Shown: one piece after another, positions 28,120 through 53,808 of the stretch
Position numbering within the stretch: the stretch's first letter is position 1
Layout: each line of letters begins with the position of its first letter
Origin: Methanosarcina acetivorans C2A
Lineage (GTDB): Archaea; Halobacteriota; Methanosarcinia; Methanosarcinales; Methanosarcinaceae
Length of the DNA stretch: 64,000 nucleotides
Assembly (NCBI RefSeq): GCF_000007345.1
Contig: NC_003552.1
Location: forward strand, 2,976,001-3,040,000
Direction of reading: 5' to 3'
Made by a program: the position numbers and the translations under genes
The notes under the pieces: model-generated
Database searches by the model: none
Told to the model about the DNA's origin: nothing
What the model saw: only the letters and a program-made list of their open reading frames with translations

Positions 28120-29523
28120 ATGGCAACTGAATACGCTTTGAGGATGGGTGATGGCAAAAGGATCTACCTCACAAAAGAAAAAATCCTCAGTGAGATAGAA
28201 GCCGGCTCGTCAAATGCCGCTGATCTGGGAGATATCCCTGATCTCAGTACGGATGAAATGAAAAAGCTCGCTGAAATCCTTATGATGCCCGGAAAGGCCG
28301 TGAGTGTCGAACAGGGGATGGAAGTCCCGGTTACTCATGATATAGGCACGATCCGGCTTGATGGGGACCAGGGTAACAGCGGCGTTGGGATCCCCTCCAG
28401 CCGTCTGGTAGGCTGCATGACGCATGAGAGGGCATTTGGCGCCGACACAATGGAACTCGGACACATCGACTACAGTTTCAAGCCGGTCAAACCCGTTGTC
28501 TCTAACGAGTGCCAGGCAATGGAAGTCTGCCAGCAGAACATGATCATTCCCCTTTTCTACGGCGCAATGCCCAACATGGGGCTTTACTACACTCCAGACG
28601 GACCCTTCGAGAACCCCGGTGATCTTATGAAGATGTTCAAGATCGATAAGGCAAGGGAGTCCATGGAACACGCAGCAGACCATCTGACCAGGGACACGGT
28701 CTGGGTTATGCAGAAACTCTTTGCCTCGGGCGCGGACGGTGTCAACTTTGATACAACTGCTGCCGCCGGAGATGCTGATATGTACGGCACCCTCCGGGCC
28801 GTGGAAGTTCTCAGGGCTCAATTTCCGGAGATGTACATTGAGGTGGGCATGGCAGGCGAGATGGTGCTCGGGATGCACGGGGAACTGGAGTACGATGAAG
28901 TTCGGCTTGCCGGGCTCTGGCCGCATGAACAGGCTCCTCTGATTGCAAAAGCCGGAGCAAACGTCTTCGGGCCTGTGGTCAACACCAACACCAGCAAGAC
29001 CTCAGCCTGGAACCTGGCAAGGGCTGTTACCTTCATAAAGGAGGCAGTAAAAGCGTCCCCGATTCCCTGTCATGTGAACATGGGTATGGGAGTGGGCGGA
29101 ATTCCCATGCTTGAAACTCCTCCTGTAGATGCGGTTACTAGGGCAAGTAAGGCAATGGTCGAAGTTGCCGGTGTCGATGGCATATAGATCGGGGTCGGCG
29201 ACCCTCTGGGTATGCCGATTTCCCACATAATGGCTTCAGGTATGACCGGGATAAGAGCTGCAGGCGACCTGGTCGCAAGGATGGAGTTTTCAAAGAACAT
29301 GCGCATAGGAGAGGCAAAAGAGTACGTGGCAAAGAAACTTAACGTTGACACCATGGACCTTGCAGACGAGCACGTTATGCGCGAACTCAGGGAAGAGCTT
29401 GACATTGGTGTCATCACTTCCGTACCCGGAGCTGCAAAGGGCATTGCTGCGAAGATGAACATTGAGAAACTGCTCGGGATCAAGATCAATTCCTGTGAAA
29501 CGTTCAGGGCACAGCTTGCCTGA
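28120..29523 (+). CDS. mtbB: Dimethylamine methyltransferase with in-frame amber (pyrrolysine) codon
   Basis: 467 aa when the TAG at 29185-29187 (codon 356) is read as pyrrolysine; the next stop is the TGA at 29521. The sequence before and after the TAG (VAGVDGI and [13 protein letters not shown]) is uninterrupted family sequence, and codon 356 is the known pyrrolysine site of MtbB. The enzyme moves one methyl group from dimethylamine to the Co(I) corrinoid of MtbC; the pyrrolysine ring activates the amine. GGAGG lies 8 bases before ATG. Genes for pyrrolysine synthesis are not in the window. The 355-residue ORF ending at the TAG is not the true end. Confidence 0.97.
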
Positions 29524-35831: not shown

Positions 35832-36434
35832 ATGAAAAAATTGAATGTCCTCTTGATATTATCTGCAATGTTTACGCTGCTTTATATCCCAGGTCCGGCA
35901 GTTGCTTTGCTGGTCCCGGAAGCTGCCGAAATCCCCTACCAGATTAATGCCTCGGACAGAATAGTTATCGGCACGGTAAGTGGGATTGACATTCACTATG
36001 ACCATACAATCTTCACAATTACAGTTGATGAGTGGCTCTATAACCCTCTACCCGCAAAAACCATAGACGTGAGAACCGAGACCGGAAAGTATCTCTGGAC
36101 TGAAGACCAGGCAGAATTCACCCTTAACGAGTCTGTACTCCTCATGCTCAGGGACGAAGACCCCGAGAAGCAGCTTTTCAGAGTCTCTATTGGCTTTCCT
36201 GGAAAACACTCTGCATCAGACAGGGGAGCTGTAATTGAAGAGCTGAAGGTTCAGGGAAAATGGCAGGAAGAAAATCAGACCGGAAATACGGAAACGGCAG
36301 GTGAGCAGCCAGCAGGTCCAAATTCCCCCTCAGATACGGAAAACATTCCTTTCACAGGCATTCTGTGGGCAGCTGCAGCAATGCTCGGAGCAGTTGAATT
36401 TGCTGGGAAGAAAAAGAAGTATAATGACCGTTAA
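35832..36434 (+). CDS. Secreted protein anchored by a C-terminal membrane helix
   Basis: 200 aa from ATG 35832, chosen because GGAGAA precedes it and because it begins directly with a signal peptide (KKLNVLLILSAMFTLLYIPGPAVA). A beta-rich domain follows (RIVIGTVSGIDIHYDHTIFT, VDEWLYNPLP, LLMLRDEDP), then a polar Thr/Glu/Pro/Ser linker (about 135-170), and a C-terminal IPFTGILWAAAAMLGAVEF helix with a KKKK stop. The layout matches archaeal surface proteins with a sorting-type tail. Function is unknown. An upstream extension to 35751 exists in frame but lacks a ribosome binding site. Confidence 0.75.
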   Translation: MKKLNVLLILSAMFTLLYIPGPAVALLVPEAAEIPYQINASDRIVIGTVSGIDIHYDHTIFTITVDEWLYNPLPAKTIDVRTETGKYLWTEDQAEFTLNESVLLMLRDEDPEKQLFRVSIGFPGKHSASDRGAVIEELKVQGKWQEENQTGNTETAGEQPAGPNSPSDTENIPFTGILWAAAAMLGAVEFAGKKKKYNDR

Positions 36435-36486
36435 AAAATGTAGCCATTACGAACTTTTCAAACAATATCGTAATGGCCATTAACGG
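36428..36486. terminator. Two-step inverted repeat at the 3' end of two convergent units
   Basis: CCGTTAA/TTAACGG encloses GCCATTACGA/TCGTAATGGC (10 bp perfect, 15-base loop). It overlaps the stop codon of the secreted protein and lies 60 bases after the 25-codon microgene on the other strand, so it may stop transcription from both sides. A related sequence, GACCATTTAAAATGTAGCCATTATGA, recurs at about 37133. Confidence 0.6.
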
Positions 36487-36545
36487 TGAATTAACATCCC
36501 ATAAGAGAGATATATTTCATCTGAGATAAGTATTGGACTCAGAGT

Positions 36546-36623
36546 TTAGCAGCAACGCCAGTAGAATCTGGGTACACAGCACCTAATTCTTATGCAGATA
36601 AAGCGGAAGAAAAAGAAACACAT
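36546..36623 (-). CDS. Microgene, 25-aa Cys/Arg/Phe-rich peptide (unit I)
   Basis: ATG 36623 to TAA 36546. The peptide begins MCFFFFRFICIRIR and ends VPRFYWRCC, with 5 Cys and 5 Arg among 25 residues and no acidic residue. A purine-rich GGGGGGAATTATAATG places six G at the spacing seen for the Shine-Dalgarno sites of the neighbouring microgenes. The MC start and the aromatic-cysteine content echo the unit II peptide. It lies about 300 bases downstream of conserved promoter module I. No homologue is known to me; coding status is inferred. Confidence 0.45.
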   Translation of the reverse strand: MCFFFFRFICIRIRCCVPRFYWRCC

Positions 36624-36765: not shown

Positions 36766-36979
36766 AAACCCCTTATCAACCCCCCAAATAAGTTTTATAC
36801 TCAAGGCAATTATTTTTAAAACTATTCTTAATCCTGATTTTAATTTGGAGATGAGTAGATTTTATTTTAATTGCCAGAGAGTATATAGCAAATTATAATA
36901 ATAATACTAATAACAATCAATTATATAAAACGACTAGAATAATTTGTTCTAATCATTAAATAGTCTTCGAAAATCCAGA
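36766..36979 (-). promoter_or_regulatory. Conserved promoter/leader module I
   Basis: Read on the minus strand: GATTTTCGAAGACTATTTAATG, an operator-like TAGAA-N7-TTCTA (36935-36951), a TATA box TTTTATATAA (36921-36930), then ATATACTCTCTGGCAATT, a spacer, AATTGCCTTGAGTATAA (an inverted GGCAATT/AATTGCC pair about 75 bases apart) and GGGGGGTTGATAAGG. The same order recurs in modules II and III. Confidence 0.75.
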
Positions 36980-37385
36980 CAAATATCTGATTAAGGTTCA
37001 GGATTTGCAGTAAGGAATTATTTTTATTAAATAATGTCAAGAATGTATTAGGGCACAAGCACCAGCCATTACATTATAAAAAAGACAATCAATAAGTTCC
37101 TTTTAAGCCTGGTAGAGATACTCCTCTACAGTGACCATTTAAAATGTAGCCATTATGACAGTTTCAAAACACTTCCAGCTGATTATTACTCAAATATAAA
37201 CAAAAACCTTACAGAAACCGTGTTTAAGCTGAAAATGTTAAAAAACTCAAAATGTATGGAACAGGGCAAAAAAGTAAGTGAGAAGCTCAAATGAAGTGAT
37301 CCGCCTCGTACTGGTATTCCCTATAATCCCTGAAAAAAGAAATGCACAACTAAATTTAGAAAAACAAACATACATAGTCATCAAT
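36980..37385. other. Spacer between units I and II
   Basis: AT-rich. A short inverted repeat CTGGTAGAGA-tactc-CTCTACAG lies near 37110-37133. No gene seen on either strand; this would be the upstream flank of module I and the end of unit II. Confidence 0.4.
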
Positions 37386-37419
37386 TCAAAAAAAGATAAT
37401 TTCTTAGAAATTATCTTTT
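37386..37419 (-). terminator. Terminator hairpin of unit II
   Basis: AAAAGATAATTT-cttag-AAATTATCTTTT is a perfect 12-bp stem (37391-37419). Read on the minus strand it is followed by more T (TTTTTTTGAATTG). It lies 69 bases after the second microgene of unit II. A similar flank, TCATCAATTCAA...CTTGAAAAGA, recurs after unit III near 38613-38667. Confidence 0.75.
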
Positions 37420-37487
37420 ATACTTGAAAAGACGACTATGGATTATATTTTTTTAAATTTGCTTATTATCGGGCTTAGCGGTTGTTA

Positions 37488-37601
37488 TTAACAACCGCCC
37501 CAGCCGCCACAACCGCCGCCCCAGCCGCAGCCGCAGCCACGACCCCAGAAGCGATGCCTGAAGCCCCAGCCCCAGTTGTTAAATCCAAATCCACAACACA
37601 T
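37488..37601 (-). CDS. Microgene, 37-aa Cys/Gly/Trp-rich peptide, copy 2
   Basis: ATG 37601 to TAA 37488. The peptide begins MCCGFGFNNWGWGFRHRFWG and ends GWGGGCGGWGGC; 16 Gly, 6 Cys and 6 Trp in 37 residues. GGAGG sits eight bases before the ATG (GGAGGTAAGTACAATG). The opposite strand shows an Ala/Pro-rich ORF that is only the antisense. The coding part and ribosome binding site are identical to copy 1 at 37679-37792. Cys and Trp codons are common here although both residues are rare by chance. Possible roles, all inferred: metal binding, or an aggregating or membrane-active peptide. No maturation enzyme is next to it. Confidence 0.65.
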   Translation of the reverse strand: MCCGFGFNNWGWGFRHRFWGRGCGCGWGGGCGGWGGC

Positions 37602-37651
37602 TGTACTTACCTCCGTCTAATTACCTTATTTATCTTATTTACCTATTCATT

Positions 37652-37818
37652 GCTTATTATCGGGCTCAATGGTTGTTATTAACAACCGCCCCAGCCGCCA
37701 CAACCGCCGCCCCAGCCGCAGCCGCAGCCACGACCCCAGAAGCGATGCCTGAAGCCCCAGCCCCAGTTGTTAAATCCAAATCCACAACACATTGTACTTA
37801 CCTCCGTCTGTTTACCTT
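37652..37818 (-). repeat. Direct repeat of about 165 bp (other copy 37462-37628)
   Basis: The repeat holds the 37-codon microgene, its ribosome binding site (AGACGGAGGTAAG) and about 25 bases after the stop codon. The coding part is identical between copies; a few differences occur only after the stop (GGGCTTAGCGGTTG versus GGGCTCAATGGTTG). Confidence 0.9.
37679..37792 (-). CDS. Microgene, 37-aa Cys/Gly/Trp-rich peptide, copy 1
   Basis: ATG 37792 to TAA 37679. It is identical in coding sequence and ribosome binding site to the copy 191 bases further on, and comes first after promoter module II. Identity across the gene with differences only outside suggests recent duplication or gene conversion that keeps the peptides equal. 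Six cysteines (residues 2, 3, 23, 25, 31, 37) could form disulfides or bind metal. There is no signal peptide. Confidence 0.65.
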   Translation of the reverse strand: MCCGFGFNNWGWGFRHRFWGRGCGCGWGGGCGGWGGC

Positions 37819-37903
37819 ATTTTCACACTCATTATTGCACATTAAAGGAAAATGAATTCATTAAAATTAAGTGCCTATTTTCCTAATGGTGTGTACCTTC
37901 CTG

Positions 37904-38100
37904 ATTAAACCCTTATCAACCCCCAATAAGTGTTGTACTCACGGCAATTTTTGAAACCATTCTTCGTACTGATTTTATTTGGAGAGGAGCAGATTTGATT
38001 TTAATTGCCAGAGAGTATATACCTAAATAATAATAATAAATTATATAAAAAGGATAGAATAAATTTTTCTAAACATTAAATAGTCTTCGAAAATCCGGGT
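37904..38100 (-). promoter_or_regulatory. Conserved promoter/leader module II
   Basis: Same order as module I on the minus strand: GATTTTCGAAGACTATTTAATG, operator TAGAA-N7-TTCTA (38055-38071), TATA box TTTTATATAA (38041-38050), TATATACTCTCTGGCAATT, AATTGCCGTGAGT, GGGGGTTGATAAGGG. It lies about 110-310 bases before the first 37-codon gene. Confidence 0.75.
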
Positions 38101-38726
38101 AAACAGCCGACTGAGATTGAAGGTTTTCTTCTATTCTTAATTTTGAAGGTAATAATTCTTAAAACTTCTCAATAACACCGGAGATTCAGTCTTTAATTTA
38201 CTATTCAAGCAAGAAAAATTTTTTTTTTTGGATAAATAAGCTCTATTCTTAAATTAAATCAATATAAAGTTTCTTAACGGAACTGATTTTGCTGAAAAAA
38301 AATAGTAACATTTTCCAATATTAAACATCAAAACTTCAGTCTTTTCTTCAGAAAATTCATTTCTTTAGAAGTGGAACATGGGATTGATGGATTTTCGATT
38401 TATTCCATTTCATTCCCAACTTCAATTCTTCATTCCCGCTTAGATTTATTCCAGTGCCTTCAAATCTCGAGTAAGTAAAGAAAAGGAGAAAAAAGAACAA
38501 ATAAAGAAGCATGAAAAATACGGTTTCAACCGTAAAAATTACCCGGATCATATGTCACAAACCATGACAGAAAGATATGTAGTTACCAGCCCATAAAAAA
38601 TAAGAAATCGTAGCCATCAATTCAAGGTAAAAAGAAACCATGATTTTATCCTTATATCTTGAAAAGATGGCAAATGAAACAATTGCTTTTCAGTTAAGTG
38701 ACCAATTAATCCGTATCCAGTGTTAT
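38101..38726. other. Spacer between units II and III
   Basis: AT-rich, with poly-T/A runs (38220-38230). The minus-strand ORF at 38357-38551 is hydrophobic but lacks a ribosome binding site. Near 38613-38667 is the flank shared with the unit II terminator region, which would end unit III. Confidence 0.4.
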
Positions 38727-38904: not shown

Positions 38905-38988
38905 TTAGTCCCAGCCAGCCCAGATGTAGAGTTGGGTGCTCTCATAATAGGCGATGATTTTGTTGTAATATAAACTAAAGAATCCCAT
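38905..38988 (-). CDS. Microgene, 27-aa aromatic peptide, copy 1 (unit III)
   Basis: ATG 38988 to TAA 38905, with Ile at position 12 where copy 2 has Val. The same GGAGG with 8-base spacing is present. It is first after promoter module III. The duplicated block spans about 110 bp and includes the ribosome binding site and about 10 bases after the stop. The peptide is amphipathic with Tyr/Trp clusters, so membrane or surface contact is possible, but this is a guess. Confidence 0.65.
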   Translation of the reverse strand: MGFFSLYYNKIIAYYESTQLYIWAGWD

Positions 38989-39121: not shown

Positions 39122-39322
39122 CAAACTCTTTATCAACCCCCCAACACCAAGATTATACTCATGGCAATTATTTTTAGAAATTAGTCTGGACACTTATCTT
39201 CATTTGTAAGCCCACAGACTAAATTTTAATTGCTTCAGAGTATAAATAAAAATATATACGTAACACATATAAAATCAACAGAATTAACAATACTTACCAT
39301 TAAATAGTGCTTGAAAATCTGG
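39122..39322 (-). promoter_or_regulatory. Conserved promoter/leader module III
   Basis: A more diverged copy: GATTTTCAAGCACTATTTAATGG, TATA box ATTTTATATG (39266-39275), TTTATACTCTGAAGCAATT, AATTGCCATGAGTATAA, GGGGGGTTGATAAAG. The TAGAA-N7-TTCTA operator is degenerate here. It precedes the unit III microgenes by about 130-330 bases. Confidence 0.7.
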
Positions 39323-46249: not shown

Positions 46250-47146
46250 TCAGTCGGGGCTACGAGATCGGGACAGCGCTTCAAAGCCGGCGATGACTTC
46301 AAACAGTTCTTCGTCAATTCCACTCTGGCGCAGGCGATAAAATGAACCGCTGAAATCTTCCAGCAATTCATCGATATTTTTGTCAGCACGCTGCATCGCA
46401 GCCAGGCGGCTTGCGTTTTCGCTCGCAAGGGACTCGGCACATGCTCGGAAAAGAGAAACGAAAAGATATTCCCGGATGAGAGCCCTCAAAGTCTCCGTGC
46501 TATCTCCCATTACCTCAGGCAGGTTCTTTGTTGGCCAGGGATTTTTAGCCAGATCGCGCCGCCAGGTCTCGTCCAGGGGCAGCAGGCGCTGACTGACAGG
46601 CTCGTAGGTAGCTCGGGTTTTATGGCGGTTGTAAAACAGGTAAAGTTCAGCGTTTTCATCCTGGTTGCGGAATTTTTCGTTCTCCACAAGAATCTGCCCT
46701 ATGAGCGGAGTAATGCCTTTGACGGAATTCGGGACTGTAAAGAGTCCGATCAGGGGCAAACCCGCATCTATCAGGCGCGAATAAACACGTTCCCCGACAG
46801 CCCAGACCCGAGCTTTGTCCGGCAAAGCCGCCAGTTTCTTGACTGCGTAATCAGCTATAATATCATTGAACTGGCCCACAAGCCCCTGATCCGAACCGAA
46901 CACGACCGCAGCAACATAACCGGAATTCTTCTGCCCTGGCCGCTCTGCAGGAAAGGAAAGTGCAATTTCCCGAAAGCACACCTCCAATCCCATTTCCACT
47001 GTACGATAGTAGTCTGACAGAGCACTCACCGATTTCTCGTATTGTCCAATATTCGAGGCCGCCAGGGTCTTCATCGTGCGGACGACCGATTGAAGCTCGT
47101 TTGCTCTATCAATCTTTTTGCGCAGGCTTTCCGTGGTTTCGCTCAT
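46250..47146 (-). CDS. atpG: N-type ATP synthase gamma subunit
   Basis: 298 aa, last gene of the operon. The N-terminal helix ([24 protein letters not shown], shaft) and C-terminal helix ([23 protein letters not shown]) form the central shaft; the middle Rossmann-like part has [13 protein letters not shown]. The start ATG overlaps the end of atpA by ATGA. It couples rotation of the membrane ring to catalysis. Divergent from standard F1 gamma, as is usual for N-ATPases. Confidence 0.9.
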
Positions 47147-48744
47147 ACGTTCTCCTTAGTTTCCTGCATGGATTTGGCTTCGGTTTTGACTTCCGGCTTA
47201 GTAATAGTAACAGGTTTGGACTCAGGCCGGAAGCGTTCCAGTGCTTTGCGTGCAATCTCAAGAATTATTTCACGGTCCCTGTCACTCAATTCTGCATCGG
47301 CATTGAACCGCTCACGTACTTCCGCCGGGATATCCGCGACCGCCGCACGCAGGGAATGTTCGGCGTCTATTATCCGGTCAAGCGGCACGCTGTCAAAGAG
47401 TTTTGCATCCAGCGCAAGCAGGATGACGATTTGTTCAGGTACGGGCACAGGAGAAAATTCCGGCTGTTTGAGAAGGGCACGGATCCTTCGCCCATGCTCG
47501 ATAATCTTGCGGGTGTTTTCATCCAGTCTGGCGCCAAACCGGGTAAACGCTTCGAGTTCTTCAAACTGTGAATAGGCAAGCTTCAGGGCACCGGCCACTT
47601 CGCGGTAAACAGCAAGCTGTGCTTTTCCCCCTACTCGGGAAACGGACTTCCCGACATCAACTGCAGGCAGTACGCCCAGTTCGAAAAGCGAAGGCGAAAG
47701 ATAGATCTGTCCGTCTGTGATCGAAATAAGGTTAGTCGGAATATAGGCGGAAATATTCTGGGCTTCGGTCTCGATAATAGGAAGAGCTGTAAGGGAACCA
47801 CCCCCGAGTTCCCCGAGCAGGTGGGTTGCACGCTCCAGTAACCGTGAGTGAATGTAAAAGATATCCCCGGGATATGCTTCACGCCCCGGAGGACGGCGAA
47901 GCAGGAGGGAAAGTTCGCGATAGGCGCGTGCATGATTAGTTAGATCGTCGTAAACAATCAGCACGTCCCGGCCCGCTTCCATAAAATATTCTGCAATGCT
48001 GGTTGCGGCGTAAGGAGCAATATATGTCAGCCCGGACGGATCATTGCCTTCGGTCACGACAACAACAGTGTAATCCATTGCACCCTTTTCACGCAGGGTT
48101 GCTACTGCCCTGGCAACTGCCGATGCGCGCTGACCGATTGCGCAATAAACGCACAGGACATTATAATCGCGCTGGTTAAGGATAGTATCGATTGCAATTG
48201 CAGTTTTACCTGTCTGACGGTCGCCCAGAATCAACTCTCGCTGGCCGCGTCCGATTGGTATTAACGCATCAATTACTTTGATCCCTGTCTGAAGAGGCAC
48301 TGTAACCGGAGCACGATCCATGATTGGCGCGCTGGAGCGCTCGATCGGCAGGCGCTTACCGGAGATTACCGGGCCTTTACCATCGAGTGGCCTACCAAGA
48401 GGGTCAATAACGCGCCCGAGCAGACTTTCGCCTACTGAAACGTCCATAACCCGGCCTGTGCGTTCGACTTCATCCCCCGCATGCAGATGCGAGTATTCGC
48501 CCAGTAGAATGACCCCGACTTCTTTTTCGTCCACATTAAACGCAATCCCGAACACATCGCCCGGGAACTTGACAATTTCCTCGTAACCCACACCGGGAAG
48601 GCCGGAGACATTGGCTATGTCTGTGGAGACTGTCAGGATGGTGCCCACCTCCCGCGGAGTGAGAGTCGGAGTGGATGATTTACGCACCTGGTTTATTTCA
48701 TTAAAAGCGTTGTTAAAAACATCCTTTAGTCTTTCAGGTTCCAT
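47143..48744 (-). CDS. atpA: N-type ATP synthase alpha subunit
   Basis: 533 aa. Walker A GDRQTGKT (174-181) carries the Q typical of alpha, and the family segments [12 protein letters not shown] and [18 protein letters not shown] are clear. The tail ([21 protein letters not shown]) is a lineage-specific extension. It forms the alpha3beta3 head with atpD. It starts 13 bases after atpF. Confidence 0.94.
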
Positions 48745-48757
48745 GGTAATCGACTCG

Positions 48758-49747
48758 TTATTCGGGCTCCGGTGCGGGATTGACTATTTTAGTCTCAGCT
48801 TTCTGTCCAGGCTCAGATTCCTGTTCAGACTCAGATTCCTGTTCAGACTCAGATTCCTGTTCAGGCTCAGCTTTCTGTTCAGGTTCAGATACATCAGATG
48901 TTGACTCAGGCCTGGCTGTGGCTTTGGGTTCGGATTTCGACTCCGTTTCGCCCTGTTTAAGCACAGGTTCGGTCCGGGCCTCACTCCGGGGTTGCTCTTG
49001 CAGGAGCTCATCGATGCCTTCTTCCAGCGATGAGAGATAACCTGCGATGCTCCAGGCCACTTTTTGCCCGTTTGCGGTTAACTCAATACCACTGACAAGA
49101 TCCGGTACGGTCTCGAAACAGACTTGAACCTCGATGCCAAGAGTCTCCTTGATCGTCTTTTTTATCAGTTCACGCTGCGCCTGCGGAAGATCGAATGCAG
49201 TGCGAACAAGCACCGGGCTTGAAGCCAGGGCAAGCACAGAGACCAGCTGCTCTTTCTCTTTACCTTCAAGTTCGCGCAGCTTTTTGGCAAACATGTCAAC
49301 TGTGCGTTCTTCCAGATCCGTTCCAGCCAGGTCCTGCAGCGCCTTTCGAGCAATGGCAAATACTTCCTGCTGAGCCCGCCGGCTGATTGCCCGGTTTAAG
49401 TTCTGTTTATCATTTCTCAAAGCCTCTTGCTGTTTTGCCCTCAAATCGGAGGCTTCTTTCCGGGCTTCTTCGAGAAGCCGCTGACGTTCGGATTTCGCTT
49501 CATCCTTTGCCCTGCTCAGGAGCGCAGCACGCTGCTGGTCGAACTCCTCGTTCTTCTGCTTGAACTCTTCTTTCTCTTTTTGCGCTTCTGCCTCTTTCGC
49601 ATCGGCATCTGCAAGCTCGGCTGCGACCCTCTTCTCACGCTCATCGATGGCGTTGAGAATAGGTTTGTAAAGGAAGCGCTTCAGCAACCACACCAGTATG
49701 AGGAAGTTAAGCACCTGGGCAATGACAGTGAACCAATCGATCAGCAT
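48758..49747 (-). CDS. atpF: N-type ATP synthase b subunit with long acidic tail
   Basis: About 329 aa from ATG 49747, chosen because AGAGGA lies 9 bases before it and the protein then begins with its membrane helix ([20 protein letters not shown]). A longer in-frame start at 49831 would overlap atpE and is not used. Residues 40-160 form a coiled coil ([19 protein letters not shown]), followed by an F1-delta-like part (about 170-245), consistent with the lack of a separate atpH gene. The last ~75 residues are a Glu/Ser/Pro/Gln tail with QESESE repeats. It is the stator stalk. Confidence 0.9.
48803..48890. repeat. 18-bp in-frame repeat inside atpF
   Basis: GTTCAGACTCAGATTCCT repeats about four times with small changes and encodes the E-x-E-Q-E-S-E-type tail. 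Because 18 is divisible by three, copy changes alter tail length without breaking the frame. Confidence 0.85.
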
Positions 49748-49767
49748 AGACGGTGTTCCTCTGCAGC

Positions 49768-50043
49768 TCAGACAGTTGCTGTATTCCAGAACGGGTTGGC
49801 GAAGATCAAAATCATCGAGACCACGAAACAATAGATAGACAGGGACTCTATCATAGCCAGGCCCACGAAAAGGGTCCTGGTAATGGTTGCGGAAGCATCG
49901 GGTTGCTGTGCCAGCGAACTTAGAGCCGTTGCAACAGCCCTTCCTTCCCCAATTGCAGGTCCGAGAACTCCAATGCCTATCGTTAAGCCGGAGGTGGCAA
50001 TTGATGCCACCGCAATTATAGTCGTATAAGTATCAAGAGTCAT
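49768..50043 (-). CDS. atpE: N-type ATP synthase c subunit (Na+-binding ring)
   Basis: 91 aa with two membrane helices. The ion site residues visible are Glu33 in PAIGEGRA, and Glu66, Ser67 and Tyr71 in MIESLSIY. A Glu at 33 replaces the Gln found in Na+ rings such as Ilyobacter, giving two carboxylates per subunit, a feature described for N-ATPase rings. GGAGA precedes the ATG. It forms the rotating ring; Na+ preference is from family knowledge. Confidence 0.94.
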   Translation of the reverse strand: MTLDTYTTIIAVASIATSGLTIGIGVLGPAIGEGRAVATALSSLAQQPDASATITRTLFVGLAMIESLSIYCFVVSMILIFANPFWNTATV

Positions 50044-50081
50044 GGTGTCTCCTTCCGTTGTTAGAGTTATTGTTTCAATTC

Positions 50082-50771
50082 TTATTCTCCGGTTTCACGT
50101 CTGGACTTGCCGGTTCGCGTGGCGGCGGTAATGTAAACCGTTGCCAGGACACTGAAAATGTAAGCCTGGACCATGCCGATGAGCAAGCCGAGAGCAGTCA
50201 TTATTATCGGAAAAATGAAAGGGGCTATTGTCAGCAGGATGGCGATGATCATAGACCCGCTCATAATATTCCCGAACAGACGGATTGCCAGGGCCAGCGT
50301 GCGGGAGAGTTCGCTGATGATATTAAACGGCAGCATGAGGATCGTAGGTTCCGTGTACGACCTGAGATAGCTACCAAGCCCCTGCTCTTCTATACCGAAA
50401 ATTGGTACGGCCACAAATACGCATAGTGCGAGCGCAGCCGTGGTAGATAGAGAGCCTGTTGGAGGTTCATAGCCCGGAATAATGATGCAGAGATTTGCTA
50501 CGGCAATAAACAGAAAGAGCGTGCCCAGAAAGCCCAGATACTTCTGCGGCCGCTCCAGCCCAACATCTTCGATTTGTTTTAAAATACCCGTGACAATGAT
50601 TTCCAGCATATTCTGCCAGCGGGAACGTTGCAGATCAGGGGAAAGTTTGTCTGTAATAATTTTTGAGCCGACTACCATTACCAGCATCAGTCCCCAGGTA
50701 TACACAATCGTAGCGTTGAGTTTGATAAAGCCGTACTGCCAGAAAATCAGCTCATCAGGACTAAGTCGCAT
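50082..50771 (-). CDS. atpB: N-type ATP synthase a subunit
   Basis: 229 aa with about six membrane segments. The essential arginine is in LSRTLALAIRLFGNIMSG, the classic a-subunit helix, followed by ALGLLIGMVQAYIFSVLATVYI. It forms the ion half-channels next to the c ring. GGAGG is placed well before ATG 50771, inside the end of atpR, whose stop overlaps it by 11 bases. Confidence 0.94.
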   Translation of the reverse strand: MRLSPDELIFWQYGFIKLNATIVYTWGLMLVMVVGSKIITDKLSPDLQRSRWQNMLEIIVTGILKQIEDVGLERPQKYLGFLGTLFLFIAVANLCIIIPGYEPPTGSLSTTAALALCVFVAVPIFGIEEQGLGSYLRSYTEPTILMLPFNIISELSRTLALAIRLFGNIMSGSMIIAILLTIAPFIFPIIMTALGLLIGMVQAYIFSVLATVYITAATRTGKSRRETGE

Positions 50772-51075
50772 GCCCGGCCTCCTTTGCCAATTGGTTCGAC
50801 TCTTCTTCCGGGGCTCTGGTGAGCCTGGTCACTATACGGCGCATGATAAAAAATCCAAGTAAGCACATGAGCAGCCTATCCCAGTGTCCGCCTGAAGCAA
50901 AATAAAATCCAGCAACAGCAATGCCAGTCCGCAGCAGCAGACTGCCGAAGAACCAGAGTGCAGGTTGTCCGGATAAAAGGCCCTTCCGAACAGTCCACCA
51001 GAGGCCGCCGAAGAAAAAAGCCCCGAGTAAAAAGCCAGCCACCAGAGCCGAGATCAGATTGAAAACTTCACTCAT
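50761..51075 (-). CDS. atpR: N-ATPase AtpR membrane subunit
   Basis: 104 aa, three membrane segments (ISALVAGFLLGAFFFGGLWW; LWFFGSLLLRTGIAVAGFYF; LLMCLLGFFIMRRIV). Matches the AtpR family found only in N-type ATPase operons; a conserved arginine pair in the membrane (LLLRT and MRRIV) may interact with the c ring. AGGAGG precedes the ATG; the gene overlaps atpQ and atpB. It may help assembly of the ring. Confidence 0.9.
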   Translation of the reverse strand: MSEVFNLISALVAGFLLGAFFFGGLWWTVRKGLLSGQPALWFFGSLLLRTGIAVAGFYFASGGHWDRLLMCLLGFFIMRRIVTRLTRAPEEESNQLAKEAGHAT

Positions 51076-51398
51076 TGTTATCCTCCTGTTCCTCTTGCAT
51101 TTCCTTATGCTCCCTGGCTATCCAGTGCCATGCATTCAAGCAGCCTGCAAGCAGGCCGATAATTAGCATCGTAAGCGTCCAGGAAAAGCTAGCTGGATAA
51201 TTTTTGTCCAGCCAGAGCCCAAGGGCCGCCCCAAGCAGCGTGGGAATCGCCACAGACCAGCCGATAAGCCCCATCATACCCAGACCGAGCCAGACAGTCC
51301 GATTCACGTCACGTTGCGCTTTGAGTTTGCGTTCAGCTTTTCTCCCGACATGGCGGGCTAGGGGAGGGTCGGCCTTTGAGGGTTTTTCTTTCGATCTG

Positions 51399-51406
<8 letters not shown>
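51068..51406 (-). CDS. atpQ: N-ATPase AtpQ (AtpI-like) membrane subunit
   Basis: 112 aa. A basic N-terminal segment (ARHVGRKAERKLKAQRDVNR) is followed by two membrane helices (WLGLGMMGLIGWSVAIPTLL and FSWTLTMLIIGLLAGCLNAW) and a charged tail. It resembles AtpI/AtpQ-type assembly proteins. Its position between atpC and atpR is the standard N-ATPase order. The start overlaps atpC by 8 bases. Confidence 0.88.

Positions 51407-53808
<2,402 letters not shown>

Follow-up and report, generated by a model that had tools for sequence, protein, structure and literature searches.

A candidate family of tandem short-peptide gene cassettes sharing a promoter and leader element in Methanosarcina

Within the window analysed here (64,000 nucleotides (nt) of Methanosarcina acetivorans C2A, contig NC_003552.1, positions 2,976,001 to 3,040,000), two identical minus-strand open reading frames (ORFs) of 37 codons are very probably real genes that are carried on one mRNA and form one cassette of a Methanosarcina family. 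Each cassette would comprise, in this order, a shared promoter (upstream box and TATA box), a hairpin in the 5′ untranslated region (5′ UTR), one to several short ORFs (microORFs) of about 20-81 codons led by Shine-Dalgarno (SD) sites, and a 3′ hairpin. Its coding core appears to vary (Cys/Gly/Trp-rich, Tyr/Phe-rich, Cys/Phe-rich or acidic-hydrophobic), with flanking signals that would remain recognisable. The initial annotation of this DNA had recognised the tandem pair but had not noticed that it belongs to a wider family of cassettes.

Both ORFs are present as annotated (coordinates in Table 1); they encode one peptide, MCCGFGFNNWGWGFRHRFWGRGCGCGWGGGCGGWGGC, and are contained in a 173-nt direct repeat whose copies are 97% identical overall. 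The peptide has the 6 Cys residues initially reported, but we counted 5 Trp and 15 Gly instead of 6 and 16. The reported GGAGG eight bases before each start codon agrees with CCTCC on the plus strand, which places GGAGG exactly 8 nt 5′ of each ATG, and the Ala/Pro ORF described on the opposite strand corresponds to two ORFs there, at 37482-37682 and 37601-37855. A perfect hairpin terminator had been described after each ORF: only at the promoter-distal copy does the perfect palindrome GCGGTTGTTATTAACAACCGC overlap the stop codon, and no T-run comes after it, whereas the corresponding hairpin arm of the promoter-proximal copy is shorter and imperfect. A much stronger, long hairpin lies about 20-140 nt beyond this palindrome and is the better candidate for a terminator. 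The remainder of the M. acetivorans genome (5,751,492 bp) contains no further copy of the 37-mer, and no promoter element was found between the tandem ORFs in an nhmmer scan of the fetched loci.

BLAST comparison of upstream regions revealed one non-coding element located about 190-300 nt 5′ of nearly all ORFs of the family, of which iterated nhmmer searches recovered 68 copies in the fetched loci. Their alignment displays an invariant upstream box, TTTTCAAnGACTATTTAATGnTAAG, and a TATA box, TTTATATAA, followed by the start of the leader; we infer that transcription starts after the TATA box. Within M. acetivorans, the element of the 37-aa unit is the one that scores best against the element model R1 (E 2.2e-21). 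The leader stem UACUC-GGCAAUUA / UAAUUGCC-GAGUA is paired in 91.8% of cells (34 sequences), compared with at most 52% for slid versions, and two-sided, compensatory changes occur at 8 of its 13 pairs; one arm is absent from two members. Folding the 5′-UTR hairpin of the 37-aa unit in isolation recovered the predicted stem (z = -3.05). RNAalifold detected no structure on the full alignment, which is long and gappy; the stem was therefore put to a direct pairing test and also folded as a short segment. We do not propose a large riboswitch-like fold, because the fold of the whole leader is not unusually stable compared with shuffled sequences (z = +0.5). At the other end of the units, the 3′ hairpins gave z scores of -9.0 (37-aa unit), -2.9 (27-aa unit) and -5.9 (25-aa unit), and sequences related to the hairpins of the 37-aa and 27-aa units also follow other units, in several species. 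Rfam matched a single known RNA family within the window, PYLIS_2, the mtbB pyrrolysine insertion element (29185-29284, plus strand, E 3.3e-26), near an amino-acid permease gene.

The element is regularly followed by an ORF. A GGAGG-led ORF of 20-110 aa begins at +200 to +420 nt after 54 of 62 elements, compared with 81 of 4000 random placements (2.0%), none of 62 positions on the antisense strand and 11 of 61 at the same distance upstream, the last figure being raised by neighbouring array units; the elements missing such an ORF include that of the 25-aa unit of the window, in which the SD site reads GGGGGG. We sorted the peptides into types, which are working groups derived from alignments and not established families. 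In amino-acid-guided alignments, the ratio of non-synonymous to synonymous differences (pN/pS) ranged from 0.32 to 0.49 across types, and, as such alignments favour similar proteins, frame controls were run. In frame-blind DNA alignments, internal gaps were a multiple of three in 66 of 68 cases for type A and 166 of 172 for type B (232 of 240 together for these two Cys/Gly/Trp types, which are the best sampled), a share that is inflated by the period-3 repeats of Gly codons in these types. The corresponding pN/pS was 0.43 in frame versus 0.83-1.77 out of frame for type A, and 0.62 versus 0.91-1.21 for type B, the sequence pairs behind the gap and pN/pS figures of both types being non-independent. 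For the ungapped types, frame 0 gave 0.78 (Q), 0.54 (R), 0.49 (P), 0.53 (D) and 0.44 (F). Frame 0 had the lowest pN/pS of the three forward frames in all types tested; in Q, P and D, one of the reverse frames reached a similarly low value.

Stop codons and frameshifts were also sought in homologous loci, as the initial annotation had proposed; intact SD-led relatives are present in many Methanosarcina genomes, and coding is not refuted. The pair is more than a chance occurrence: the frame is preserved in related loci throughout the genus. The status of the two 37-aa ORFs as protein-coding genes thus appears well supported by SD sites, frame-keeping indels, in-frame pN/pS below 1 and a conserved promoter; the claim that these are real translated peptides stands as far as coding is concerned, on evidence that is comparative. 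Alternatively, the RNA itself might be what matters, through the leader and 3′ hairpins, translation of the short ORFs being a sensor or a by-product. The covariation of the leader hairpin, the strong 3′ hairpins and flanks that stay recognisable despite varying peptide sequences would fit such an RNA-level or dual function, as would the Methanosarcina mazei small RNAs reported to contain translated short ORFs (PMC11456600). We nevertheless regard it as unlikely, given the conservation of the frame with pN/pS below 1, the tandem SD-led cistrons devoid of a separate leader of their own, and a whole-leader fold no stronger than that of shuffled sequences.

DNA resembling the 37-aa pair was found in 15 of 31 Methanosarcina genomes, largely as arrays of SD-led Gly/Cys/Trp-rich ORFs, and most arrays are located directly downstream of ileS-mptE (assigned by class I synthetase domains for ileS and by Pfam, E 1.5e-28, for mptE). 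Of the 29 genomes in which mptE was identified, 22 have the element next to that gene, on its downstream side. In a search of 112 genomes of the family, the element model matched 30 of the 31 Methanosarcina genomes, some of them weakly, as well as three genomes of two other genera. An exact core pattern occurred in 11 stretches among the genomes of 84,980 species, all from Methanosarcina, and had no match in viral contigs. The coding pattern GGAGGTAAN5ATGTGYTGYGGN matched type C only, in two genomes; such a probe is narrow because the sequences of the family are too diverse, and the upstream element is the better probe. The copy number and sequence of family ORFs differ greatly between species. 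Predicted relatives include MGFFSLYYSKVTVIYSKTTLSIFGWFF, MCGCYSFFNLKWCFFKIKFFKCFQNFCGCR, MPFGFIINLDTFLQLIFNFNLGMFFGF and MFLYLNYTKISLYLEIVHLKILQMSGYGTLNR, from a genome that we take to be that of M. mazei. Broken, partial copies of mptE were observed at G011:C68:22730-23008, G004:C2:1395290-1395938, G001:C1:212738-213142 and G003:C1:649546-649848, some of them among or near microORF arrays, which suggests that arrays spread via duplication of the region downstream of mptE.

The element is also found before ordinary genes; the promoter is therefore not restricted to microORFs. It precedes an alpha/beta hydrolase gene in the M. acetivorans genome itself (G000:C1:3259201-3259292, L080) and, in a related genus, a 497-505-aa protein without Pfam match (G036, L116; G039, L115); these genes may point to the regulator or to the inducing condition. 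An additional element-like match (G000:C1:1185676-1185769, L079, E 1.1e-7) has no clear SD-led microORF nearby.

The peptides are diverse. Type A (25-35 aa) starts with MWFGNCGWGG, type B (60-81 aa) carries a central ITAVRAC or related motif together with CGCG repeats, type C is the 37-aa type of the window, type D (26-27 aa) is Tyr-rich, type E is Cys/Phe-rich, types F and G are short and aromatic, and types P, Q and R come from a second locus. The 37-mer of the window aligns loosely with types A and C. Aromatic residues account for 17-48% of the sequence in each of the types, and the net charge is +3 to +6 in A, C and E. Neither the 37-mer (at E up to 10) nor the other peptides tested (at E up to 1) matched any Pfam or NCBIfam family; five peptides had no match to the PADLOC anti-phage models at E up to 1, and one type C relative had none among PDB sequences. 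AlphaFold predicted a single helix for an R peptide (predicted local distance difference test, pLDDT, 81) and disorder for the 37-mer (pLDDT 46). The Q, D and R peptides had at first been read by hand as beta-hairpins; this reading was abandoned in view of the predicted helix, itself a weak indication in the case of a short peptide modelled by itself.

The initial annotation had suggested that the 37-mer may be metal-binding or self-assembling. Metal or cluster binding via CxC repeats, in the manner of metallothioneins, would agree with the CGCG repeats of type B and with the Cys-rich type A and C peptides, but Cys is scarce or absent in types P, R and D of this cassette family, Trp and Phe residues are numerous, and no metallothionein family was matched in Pfam or NCBIfam. 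We consider this explanation doubtful, a shade more so than an RNA-level function, and the presence of Cys-free peptides under the same promoter speaks against metal binding as a family-wide function. Self-assembly is compatible with the predicted disorder of the 37-mer. Another alternative is a structural matrix, in which disordered Gly/Cys/aromatic sticker peptides would act as a non-enzymatic glue or building substance of the envelope or cytoplasm, held together by disulfide cross-links, with a chemistry like that of keratin-associated proteins. The low-complexity Gly/Cys/Trp/Tyr composition, the disorder, the dosage of multiple copies and the variation in repeat length among types A and B make such a matrix the foremost of the alternatives, if still an unlikely one: no signal peptide was seen by eye, the Tyr/Phe-rich and Phe/Leu-rich types under the shared promoter differ much in chemistry, and a prediction of disorder is weak for a short peptide. 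Precursors of ribosomally synthesised and post-translationally modified peptides, for instance azole-containing ones such as microcin B17, can also be short and Gly/Cys-rich. The division into leader and core is absent here, and no modification enzyme (YcaO, radical SAM or other) was found among the Pfam-annotated neighbours in the window, which makes this origin very improbable.

Table 1. Cassette features on the minus strand of the window
Feature	Position	Strand	Remarks
Promoter/leader element of the 37-aa unit	37981-38093	-	upstream box TTTTCGAAGACTATTTAATGTTTAG (38093 to 38069); TATA box TTTATATAA (38049-38041); start of 5′ UTR
5′-UTR hairpin, UACUC..GGCAAUU / AAUUGCC..GAGUA	37936-38017	-	predicted; covariation, isolated fold
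37-aa Cys/Gly/Trp-rich ORF, promoter-proximal	37679-37792	-	SD at 37801-37805
37-aa Cys/Gly/Trp-rich ORF, promoter-distal, identical second copy	37488-37601	-	SD at 37610-37614
Long hairpin at the 3′ end; may act as terminator or as mRNA-stability element	~37346-37466	-	-39.7 kcal/mol, z = -8.96; in several species, related sequence also follows other units
Promoter/leader element of the unit adjoining mptE	39212-39317	-	nhmmer, E 1.4e-18
27-aa Tyr/Phe-rich ORF MGFFSLYYNKIIAYYESTQLYIWAGWD	38905-38988	-	SD GGAGG; relatives from other Methanosarcina genomes align with it
Second 27-aa Tyr/Phe-rich ORF, differing at a single residue	38727-38810	-
3′ hairpin region of the 27-aa unit	38585-38710	-	z = -2.9; other species have related sequence
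Promoter/leader element of the third unit	36847-36973	-	nhmmer, E 5.1e-18
25-aa Cys/Phe/Arg-rich ORF MCFFFFRFICIRIRCCVPRFYWRCC, less certain	36546-36623	-	GGGGGG replaces GGAGG; similar type E ORFs behind the element elsewhere
3′ hairpin of the third unit	36428-36487	-	z = -5.9

Besides the units listed in Table 1, M. acetivorans carries a second locus at 4849-4855 kb, whose array comprises a single P ORF, four Q ORFs and a single R ORF. At this locus some species have as many as ten ORFs of 25 aa, with up to three P and seven Q ORFs (L122, L133). In G009 (L123, 1570-3105), P and Q ORFs alternate in a repeated P-Q-Q′ order, which hints that P and Q peptides may act together. Genes for MacB/LolD-type ATP-binding cassette (ABC) transporters adjoin the second locus, and DrrA/ABC-2-type genes are found near the G001 arrays; the adjacency at the second locus may hint at a membrane or surface role.

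As the leading, though tentative, proposal, made by analogy, the products may be leaderless peptides acting on membranes or at the cell surface, in the manner of multi-peptide leaderless bacteriocins or phenol-soluble modulins; no leader was seen by eye in the 20-81-aa ORFs starting at the SD-matched ATG. Such peptides would be produced in quantity while the shared promoter is active, near-identical tandem copies would raise the output, and the Cys/Gly/Trp-rich ones would be disordered, cationic and sticky through disulfides and aromatic residues. The proposal draws on the aromatic content of every type, the positive net charge of types A, C and E, the single helix predicted for the R type, the ABC transporter genes at the second locus and near the G001 arrays, and the marked differences between species in copy number and sequence. 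Leaderless bacteriocins such as aureocin A70 and garvicin KS consist of several short leaderless peptides, as would be the case here, and ABC transporter genes can adjoin their genes. The present family differs in being archaeal, in including Gly/Cys/Trp-rich and acidic types, in that no immunity gene was seen and in that unrelated peptide types share one promoter family. The phenol-soluble modulin alpha operon of Staphylococcus encodes tandem leaderless peptides of 20-25 aa, each with its own SD site, on one mRNA, and thus resembles the present tandem SD-led short ORFs, but no sequence relation was found in the family libraries and the amino-acid composition differs. Type I toxin-antitoxin arrays (Ldr, Ibs), in which small membrane-acting peptides are under repression by antisense RNA, also combine intergenic tandem microORFs with structured leaders, and the hydrophobic 25-32-aa peptides with a predicted helix could be accommodated in this scheme. 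It is an improbable one for the present family, which has no consistent antisense promoter (an antisense TATA-like motif occurs in 6 of 54 units) and for whose Gly-rich types a transmembrane helix is improbable.

More generally, Methanosarcina could possess a so far undescribed type of expression cassette, with a constant promoter, leader hairpin and 3′ hairpin driving exchangeable microORFs that are unrelated in sequence and multiplied in tandem, as a diversifying archaeal arsenal of peptides or peptide material, a possibility that we place just short of probable. Several observations weigh against the interpretation of these loci as coding cassettes for membrane- or surface-active peptides. 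The element is missing from the stretch fetched beside mptE in 7 of 29 genomes (G006, G013, G015, G016, G017, G022 and G024, some of these stretches ending at contig edges). Selection on type Q is weak, with one reverse frame equally low, and the in-frame indels of types A and B are subject to the Gly-codon effect mentioned above. Next to the mptE locus we recognised neither an exporter gene nor an immunity gene, and the acidic P peptides are unlike cationic antimicrobials.

Elsewhere in the window, a run of minus-strand ORFs (46250-53254) has starts resembling those of a bacterial-type F1Fo ATP synthase cluster, which it may be.

Small proteins are already known in Methanosarcina; what appears to be new here is the cassette family, of which we found no report in the openly licensed papers searched, where six peptide strings likewise had no occurrence. 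Ribosome profiling of M. mazei revealed 314 unannotated short ORFs, half of them encoding at most 30 aa, in the same genus and size class (PMC11456600). The main text of that study does not mention tandem or paralogous arrays, and some ORFs of the present family may already be among those it detected. If our interpretation is correct, annotation of a model archaeal genus has missed a large number of very short tandem genes, located in intergenic DNA that it treats as empty. Their shared regulatory signals would make them easier to find, count and delete, and their function would be testable with the genetics of M. acetivorans and M. mazei. The combination of constant regulatory flanks with a variable, multi-copy core would also bear on how short genes originate and diversify.
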